DNA from: Dendrophyllia cribrosa
Lineage: Eukaryota > Cnidaria > Anthozoa > Scleractinia > Dendrophylliidae
Assembly: GCA_024195265.1 (NCBI GenBank)
Contig: JAJLRJ010000001.1
Coordinates: 1,016,501-1,080,500 of the forward strand
DNA: 64,000 nucleotides
Direction: 5' to 3'
This document shows positions 45,951-48,900 of the stretch, piece by piece (the stretch's first letter is position 1; each line of letters begins with the position of its first letter). The notes below the pieces were generated by a model. That model did no database searches and had not been told where the DNA came from. It saw only the letters and a program-made list of their open reading frames with translations. A program made the position numbers and the translations under genes.

Positions 45951-48900
45951 ATGGCACATTTCGGCTGCATAACTGTATTTGCAGCGCTACTGTGTGGTAA
46001 TGTGCCCACCGTGAAAGCGGTCCATGACGTCGGCAGGGACAAGTACGTGGAACAAAATGTTTCGATCAATTTGGACCATTCTGTTTTTACTGTTAGTGAG
46101 AAGTTCCTCTCCGTTGCAATCGATTCTGGCATCATGAAAAACCACTGGCGTTATGTGAATTTCACCTCAGAGAAGTTCTTTACCCTTGCACGAGGTCTCT
46201 TCCCTTCTTTTCTTCGTATCGGAGGAACGGCTGAAGATTTTTTGATTTACGATGATTCACGAGGACTGAATAAGTTCAAGAATTTTACTAATTTTACAAT
46301 CACGCATGAGGATTTGGACAAGATTCATCTGCTGTCTTCCAAGGCAAATTGGGATGTCATGTTTGGATTGAATGTGCTTCTAAGGGAGAGAGATGGGTCT
46401 TGGAATGCAAGCAACCCCAAACAAATCATGCAGTATGTTGCTCAGCATAACTATCATTTTGGATGGGAGCTTGGAAATGGTAAAATTAAACATACTTTGT
46501 GTAAATTAATAATACTTGCATACCTGTGGAAACATGCTCATTTTTGTACATCACCAGCCTGCATTTCGAACTAAAAAATATACAGATTGTATTTTGTACT
46601 ACATGTACATGTAAAATCAACAAGTGATGGGCCATTGCAATAATCTACAAATGGCAAGTAAAAACAGCTCCACATGGCTGTGTTCCAAGTCAAGAAAACA
46701 GGTGCTCAGGTGGTTAATTAAAGGGAACCTCCATTGTCATAACAAATCGACGTTAAATTGTTGGAAATAAAGTTGAAATTTCAATTATTTTAACAACAAA
46801 TGGAAATATTTTTTCAGTGTACAAAGAAATGGATATTAATTTCGCCTATTTTTACTTTTAAATTTCCCGTTCGCCGCCATTTTGAATATTTATGACGTGT
46901 TATGGTTGCCGCTATTGTTAATCAATGTTCTTTTGAATGCAACAATTAGACAACGGTAGCACTTCATAAATATTCAAAATGGTGGCGCGCAGGTAATTTA
47001 AGAGCGAAAATAGGCAATATTCATATCCATTTTTTTGGAAAATTACATGTAAATTGTATTTGCACTTGTTTTTTTAAAAAAATTAAATTTAGACGTTATT
47101 TCCAACAATTTAATGCCAATGTGTTATAACAATGGAGGTTCCCTTTAACAACATGCACTGTAGACTAAACTTACATTGAGGGGTCTCCTTGCATCAAGTA
47201 CATGTACATTATGTCCTGTTAATGAAGATTTCACTGCACATTGTATTATTGTATTTAAGCATCGGACAAAGAAACAAATCTGACTCCCTGCCGGGAATTA
47301 AACCCATATGTAAATGTAGAAATTAAACATGATCTGGAAACCGGTCAGAATGCTCTAACCAACTGAGCTACTGTGAGACTCATAGCAAGTGCTACATGTA
47401 CACCTGCAGGTTATTTATTAGGTTCATGTGACATGTGGTCTGCATACTGCTCAAAAGCATCTTGTGTGGTGATAAAGAAAGAAAGATGGGTTCCATTAAT
47501 TTTTCACCAGGTATTCAGATTTTTTCTTTGCCATCATGATTTTGACGTTACTGATCCTACACATGTAGCATGTCAGTAAACTGTATCTCCTTTCGTTAGT
47601 CAACACCTGATCAGTTTCCTGAAGGTCATGGGTTTGATTCTCATTGAGGTTTCTTTGTCCCATTGCTTGTGACATGCTAAACATTACAAATGTACATCTT
47701 ATCATTTCTTGATTTTACCTTCCAGAACCTAACCTTTTTAAGGATTTCAACAAGTCACTTTCCCCAGAGGAACTTGCAAATGACTTTCAAACTTTAAGGG
47801 CAATTCTTAAAAGCAGTCCTCAATTTGGAAATTATCTTGCTGGCCCTGATGTTACCAGGATCAATAATCACTCCAAAAGTGCAAGCTATCTTGAAAGGTA
47901 ATAAAGTTTCCCTGTAAGACATCGTTTAACCCCAGTCGTTTGTTATTAATTTTCTTTCTTCTAGAGCCAAATCTGTACAAGCAGTATTTTAATAAGTCTG
48001 TTTCTCCAGAGGAGCTTGCAGAAGACTTTAAAACTTTAAGGGCTATTCTGAAAAGCACTCCTCAGTTTGGAAACTTTCTCATCGGTCCTGATGTTACAAC
48101 AGTAGGAAATCACACAAGATCTGCAATATTTATGGAAAGGTGAAGCCTGAATCAGCTGCAAATTAAAGTGTGGTAGATTGTCAGCTATAGCTTTGTTGTT
48201 TAACATACCACTTGGGATTCTGATGGAAAATGACCATGACATAACAAGGTGGCCATTCCTTACATAGTTTCATTGTGCACACAGACTCTAACACAAGAAT
48301 TATTAACTGCAATTAAAGGCTGCTTAAAAGTGATTTGTAGTGCAGGTCTGGAATATTTCACATGAGACTGTTATTTCAGCAATGGAGATACTAGTACACT
48401 GTGAAACAACAGTAATGTACAGATATTTCCAGTTACTTTGTCTTGAACTTACTTGTATTTACACCACATTTCTGCAGTGGTCTTCTTTTTTGGCACTTAA
48501 GTTGGGAGAAGATGTTATAAAATCAAAGCAAATTATCTTTTGCGATCATAATCTGTGTGTTAAATTATGTAGTAATATTACAATGAGAAGTGATATGCTT
48601 GTAATACTATTTGCTTCATTTGAGTAATCTTAGTGCGAATGTTGATGTAGCTTACTTAAATTTCTACAATAAATTACTTAAAGGGACACTGTCATGACGG
48701 CGCATGTGCCAGTTTCTCAAATCGAAACTTGAAAAGTGCAGCCTGAATTTTTCAAGTTAAAGTGCCAATTTCAAAATGGCATCGACTAGTGGTGGTGGTC
48801 ATGGTAGAAAATGAATAAGCTTGGTATGCCAAAGGATAATTTGAAAAATATTAGGGACAGAAAAGGATATTTGAAGGATATTTGAAGTGAGCCTGGTCTG

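Follow-up and report, generated by a model that had tools for sequence, protein, structure and literature searches.

A heparanase-type gene of the scleractinian Dendrophyllia cribrosa carries two adjacent exons, here called A and B, that are probably copies of one ancestral exon, used in a mutually exclusive manner and giving two active heparanase-type enzymes with different groove rims (probability about 0.7). The gene lies on the + strand at 45951-52687 of the window, that is, the whole 64,000-nucleotide stretch of contig JAJLRJ010000001.1 that was analysed. Judged from the DNA, the pair is real: A and B are alternative exons that are both under constraint. They are most likely mutually exclusive in the classic way, and a functional difference between the two predicted isoforms is plausible.

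Gene structure

The gene model consists of the following features, all on the + strand:

45951-46479, +: exon 1, beginning with the start codon and ending one base into the acid/base Glu codon (phase 0 to 1); its frame is open, its donor reads GTAAAA, and its translation matches human proheparanase
46480-47725, +: intron 5' of exon A, 1246 nt; contains a foldback repeat at 46718-47148
47726-47897, +: alternative exon A, 172 nt, phase 1 to 2
47898-47964, +: A-B intron, 67 nt; yTnAy motifs give candidate branch points at 31 and 51 nt past the donor
47965-48139, +: alternative exon B, 175 nt, phase 1 to 2
48993-49040, +: exon 3, supplying the rest of the Ser codon that A or B leaves incomplete
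49313-49513, +: exon 4; encodes the nucleophile Glu, in [14 protein letters not shown]
50553-50664, +: exon 5 of the gene model
51528-51640, +: exon 6 of the gene model
52246-52389, +: exon 7 of the gene model
52528-52687, +: exon 8 of the gene model, ending in the stop codon TAA

All introns of the gene are of the GT-AG type, and the six splice coordinates proposed in the initial annotation (46479, 47726, 47897, 47965, 48139 and 48993) all fall at such sites. Its description of tandem exons 67 nt apart, both running from phase 1 to phase 2 and opening with the second and third bases of the Glu codon, is borne out by the gene model. The codon for the acid/base Glu is split, with its first base in exon 1 and the rest opening either A (G/AA) or B (G/AG). 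The two exons are adjacent, homologous, similar in length and identical in phase, as is typical of mutually exclusive pairs. Their splice sites are also alike in strength: the donors match the consensus at 6/9 (A) and 5/9 (B) positions, and each acceptor has 13 pyrimidines in 16 positions.

With either exon by itself, the predicted protein is full-length and retains both catalytic glutamates; isoform A has 492 amino acids and isoform B 493, and both frames are uninterrupted. Both exons together, or neither, lead to an early stop. When A is spliced to B, the stop falls at codon 243, nine residues beyond exon A; when both are skipped, it falls at codon 186. It had been predicted that double inclusion would hit a stop within about ten codons and that double skipping would break the frame, and both stops were found.

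Relationship to heparanases

By sequence comparison, the predicted product is a GH79 heparanase-type enzyme, with a match that spans the catalytic chain. Human proheparanase (5la4) is matched with 366.0 bits by isoform A and 365.9 bits by isoform B, in two HMMER stretches, and the Pfam family Glyco_hydro_79n with 79.2 and 85.2 bits (cut-off 23.1). The acid/base Glu (human 225, in WELGNEPN) and the nucleophile Glu (human 343) are both present and aligned to their human counterparts. HPSE2 is described in one source as having Gly at the nucleophile position (PMC12406646), at odds with another in which both glutamates of Hpa2 are called conserved (PMC6892829); whichever account of HPSE2 holds, the D. 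cribrosa gene has both catalytic residues. Among other corals, a heparanase is named for Acropora tenuis in a table row of PMC10363134.

In vertebrate-type processed HPSE1, a 6-kDa linker covers the groove and is excised on activation. The predicted coral protein lacks an equivalent of it: between the two HMMER stretches, 5 residues (105-109; window 46263-46277) stand opposite 49 in human (chain 75-123). The protein is for this reason not classed with the processed type. Since the human linker region is absent, the predicted enzyme may reach activity with no linker excision. A literature search for single-chain linker variants gave no match.

Differences between A and B at the substrate groove

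The proteins encoded by A and B differ in 17 aligned columns, comprising 16 substitutions and one indel. They were placed against the human enzyme in a three-way alignment set by hand after two HMMER alignments. The HMMER alignments place gaps one column apart (the isoform A gap is at human 230, versus 231 by hand), and two inserted columns fall before or after Arg272, depending on the alignment. In general (beta/alpha)8 architecture, the catalytic face includes the loops that follow strands 4 and 5.

The initial annotation placed the differences where a substrate-lining loop might be tuned, and the loops where they cluster do include residues for which substrate or docked-inhibitor contacts are reported in the human enzyme. 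Heparin-binding domain 2 (HBD2) of human heparanase consists of residues 270-280 (PMC6892829). In this region, which like the contact residues is defined by the literature but was picked after the alignment had been seen, 8/13 columns differ between A and B when the two inserted columns are counted, compared with 9/46 elsewhere (Fisher p = 0.0058), and 7/11 differ when they are left out, compared with 10/48 (p = 0.009). A set of contact residues was compiled from the same paper and an inhibitor-docking study (PMC8157885). With the inserted columns and without Glu225, 8/14 of these differ (p = 0.011); with Glu225 and without the inserted columns, 7/13 (p = 0.031); with both, 8/15 (p = 0.020); and with neither, 7/12 (p = 0.017). 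A scan for clustering that uses no predefined region gives p = 0.059.

At the human Gln270 column, A has Arg and B has Thr; in human heparanase, Gln270 hydrogen-bonds the substrate (PMC6892829). The Arg272 column holds His in both isoforms or, under the alternative gap placing, Asn in A and Gly in B. It thus contains neither Arg nor Lys in either isoform, and two extra residues adjoin it. Because this column is changed and two residues are inserted beside it, the human contacts may not carry over. Gln270 and Arg272 are among the residues kept across the four species compared in PMC6892829, going by their absence from those named there as non-conserved. Since both are replaced in A and in B, the loop departs from these four species in both isoforms.

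By eye, an N-x-S/T sequon is kept in the loop of human Arg272-Arg273 in both A (NHS) and B (NHT), and a second sequon, NKS, follows the acid/base Glu in both exons. A glycan at the groove rim, if added there, would be unlike the human loop.

The loop differences might be no more than drift, the exons being mutually exclusive, the proteins equivalent, and the pair persisting by chance or for the sake of expression. This reading is unlikely, yet it deserves to be taken seriously. Five of the eight differences in HBD2 are conservative swaps (I/V, S/T, K/R, Y/F, L/M), the clustering in the region-free scan is only at the level given above, and the residues around those that bind heparan sulfate are described as far less conserved among the animals compared (PMC6892829). 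However, the remaining differences in HBD2 are non-conservative (R/T, N/G and S/I), and the columns of human Lys231 and Lys232 have an indel and a D/Y exchange, all at the loops, while the stretch between the loops (human 238-269) differs at just 5/32 columns. These differences count against equivalent proteins. The bolder proposal that exon choice retargets the enzyme is doubtful: one isoform would act on heparan sulfate and the other on a different uronic-acid polymer or sulfation pattern, and the gene would switch between host-matrix remodelling and digestion or the handling of symbionts or microbes.

Constraint on both exons

A and B were compared over 58 shared codons, with the boundary codons completed by the shared bases and the one-codon gap excluded. 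They differ at 45/174 bases, distributed over codon positions 1, 2 and 3 as 10, 10 and 25. The amino acids are identical at 42/58 codons, or 72%, a recount that agrees with the earlier estimate of about 72% protein identity. The estimates of dN are 0.187 and 0.186, and those of dS are 1.23 (NG86) and 0.80 (LWL85). In tblastn, each exon finds the other with E below 1e-25 and 70.7% identity; a tblastn search of the window for a third exon copy found none, the next best match having E 0.63. The resemblance between A and B, with its bias to third positions, exceeds chance.

When A was mutated to an equal distance with all changes neutral, 42 identities were reached in 0/20000 runs (best 38), and an open frame survived in 29% of runs. 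In a second model, one copy was limited to synonymous change and the other was neutral. Here, 16 or fewer amino-acid changes were obtained in 0/5000 runs starting from A and 1/5000 starting from B, with an open frame surviving in 33-34%. An open frame by itself is weak evidence of constraint and proves little. Because so few amino-acid changes are not expected under the model with one neutral copy, both exons appear to be kept as protein; within these simple models, applied to one sequence, the degree of amino-acid conservation speaks for constraint on the two copies alike.

The same runs count heavily against the suggestion that only one exon is truly used while its neighbour decays. In favour of this suggestion, the consensus G at +5 is missing from both donors, and frames stay open in 29-34% of the neutral simulations. 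However, none of the four splice sites and neither frame is disrupted despite the change of 45/174 bases, and the reading was rejected on the 0 and 1 of 5000 one-neutral runs with 16 or fewer changes. It must be considered very improbable.

Mutually exclusive splicing

The claim that the exons at the catalytic Glu are mutually exclusive is supported by the anatomy of the gene together with this signature of selection. Exclusion can operate through the reading frame or through steric interference, and both routes occur in known cases. In a survey of human exons, 60% of clusters have exons not divisible by three, and a distance of <50 nt was taken as potential steric interference, which applies to 57 clusters (9%) (PMC5740500). 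On the predicted gene structure, frame is the certain route here. The A-B intron is the shortest of the eight, the others being 138-1246 nt, and may help exclusivity. Its candidate branch points are 31 and 51 nt downstream of the donor, compared with a proposed limit of about 50 nt, although they are motif matches only and the limit is derived from vertebrates. Because the 51-nt candidate slightly exceeds the limit, steric exclusion is not certain.

In the proposed explanation, one ancestral heparanase exon would have been duplicated in tandem to yield A and B. Joining of A to B would be hindered by the short intron, and transcripts that include both exons or neither would be cleared by nonsense-mediated decay. 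One gene would then produce two active heparanase-type enzymes with a shared catalytic core but distinct groove rims, formed by the loops that follow barrel strands 4 and 5. The A and B enzymes would thus differ in how they bind or cleave heparan sulfate or a related chain.

Alternatively, the pair could serve mainly as an off switch, in which double inclusion makes RNA destined for decay and thereby sets the dose of heparanase. The stop nine residues past A would suit such a switch, and in U2AF1, which has two tandem homologous exons, transcripts that include both of them or skip both undergo decay (PMC5224494). This is very improbable as the main role, however: it leaves the protein-level constraint on both exons unexplained, and the A-B join may be inefficient with so short an intron. 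Two alternative active enzymes remain the preferred reading.

Origin of the exon pair

No similarity is left in the 67-nt flanks around A and B, where 320/500 and 429/500 shuffles reach the observed score. Since these flanks have no remaining similarity, the duplication is not recent, and a recent origin was rejected. Over 57 residues, A has 19 and B has 16 identities to the human protein. As the identity between A and B (42/58) exceeds that of either to human, the duplication would have followed the split from the human lineage. It is thus likely, from comparison within this gene and with the human protein, that the duplication is later than that split and yet not recent. Searches for relatives found none in viral contigs and, in genome contigs, 29 pattern matches, with 0 confirmed as a relative.

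An assembly artefact that set two alleles or haplotypes side by side can practically be dismissed: a 160-base C run in an intron of the same gene (50972-51131), possibly an assembly or read artefact, hints at a possible fault elsewhere, but A and B differ at 45/174 bases with a codon-position pattern, and their flanking introns do not match as those of alleles would.

Other features of the window

The inverted repeat at 46718-47148, a foldback in the intron 5' of A, has relatives at 2238-2452 and 3204-3279; together they make up a small repeat family, perhaps a non-autonomous transposon. In the intron after B, about 123 bases (48677-48799) are 87% like 2603-2725, a dispersed repeat. A TCCG/TCAG tandem array (~51260-51423) lies in the same intron as the C run.

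By eye, two pairs of long single-exon ORFs resemble rhodopsin-type receptors:

6647-7810, - strand: receptor-like ORF
13620-14894, - strand: receptor-like ORF
56033-57157, - strand: receptor-like ORF; its stretch of Lys codons may reflect an error in frame or assembly
62137-63129, - strand: receptor-like ORF

A further ORF at 39930-40754 (- strand) has a chromodomain-like region, also by eye.

Comparison with known systems

Alternative exons that alter how an enzyme handles its substrate are known from KHK (exons 3a/3c) and CYP4F3 (exons 3/4), which are vertebrate genes with other folds and substrates. Heparanase is a drug target in human cancer. If both isoforms are made, the coral gene would be a natural experiment on the residues that set sugar-chain selectivity, with all the differences confined to the segment that runs from the catalytic acid to the last residues of the HBD2 region. 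If the proposal is true, a glycoside hydrolase active site joins the enzymes diversified through exon duplication. The splicing arrangement itself is of a known type, seen here in the sequence of a heparanase-type gene. In the literature searched (titles and abstract openings), no heparanase exon pair of this kind was described among the matches listed.

In human HPSE, skipping of exon 5 removes 58 residues including Glu225, keeps the frame and abolishes activity (PMC6892829). Exon 5 corresponds to A/B, encoding the same part of the protein, and the loss of activity upon its skipping indicates that this region is needed. Unlike in the coral gene, skipping preserves the frame, and the account in PMC6892829, as far as consulted, mentions no alternative copy of the exon.

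The U2AF1 exons Ab/3 are likewise tandem, homologous and of non-triplet length, with small coding differences within one domain, and inclusion of both or neither leads to stops and decay. However, U2AF1 is a vertebrate splicing factor, and its exons are 67 nt long, compared with 172 and 175 nt here (PMC5224494). Exons 4a/4b of OGDH are duplicated exons in an enzyme, separated by an intron of restricted size. There, branch points have been mapped, less than ~50 nt from the donor, whereas those of the coral gene are motif matches only; the vertebrate OGDH pair alters the calcium response and not a substrate groove (PMC7969005). NALCN, although an ion channel for which cnidarians have a single exon 15a, offers an invertebrate parallel, in which the mutually exclusive exons 15a/15b swap a residue that is expected to set selectivity (PMC3557258).
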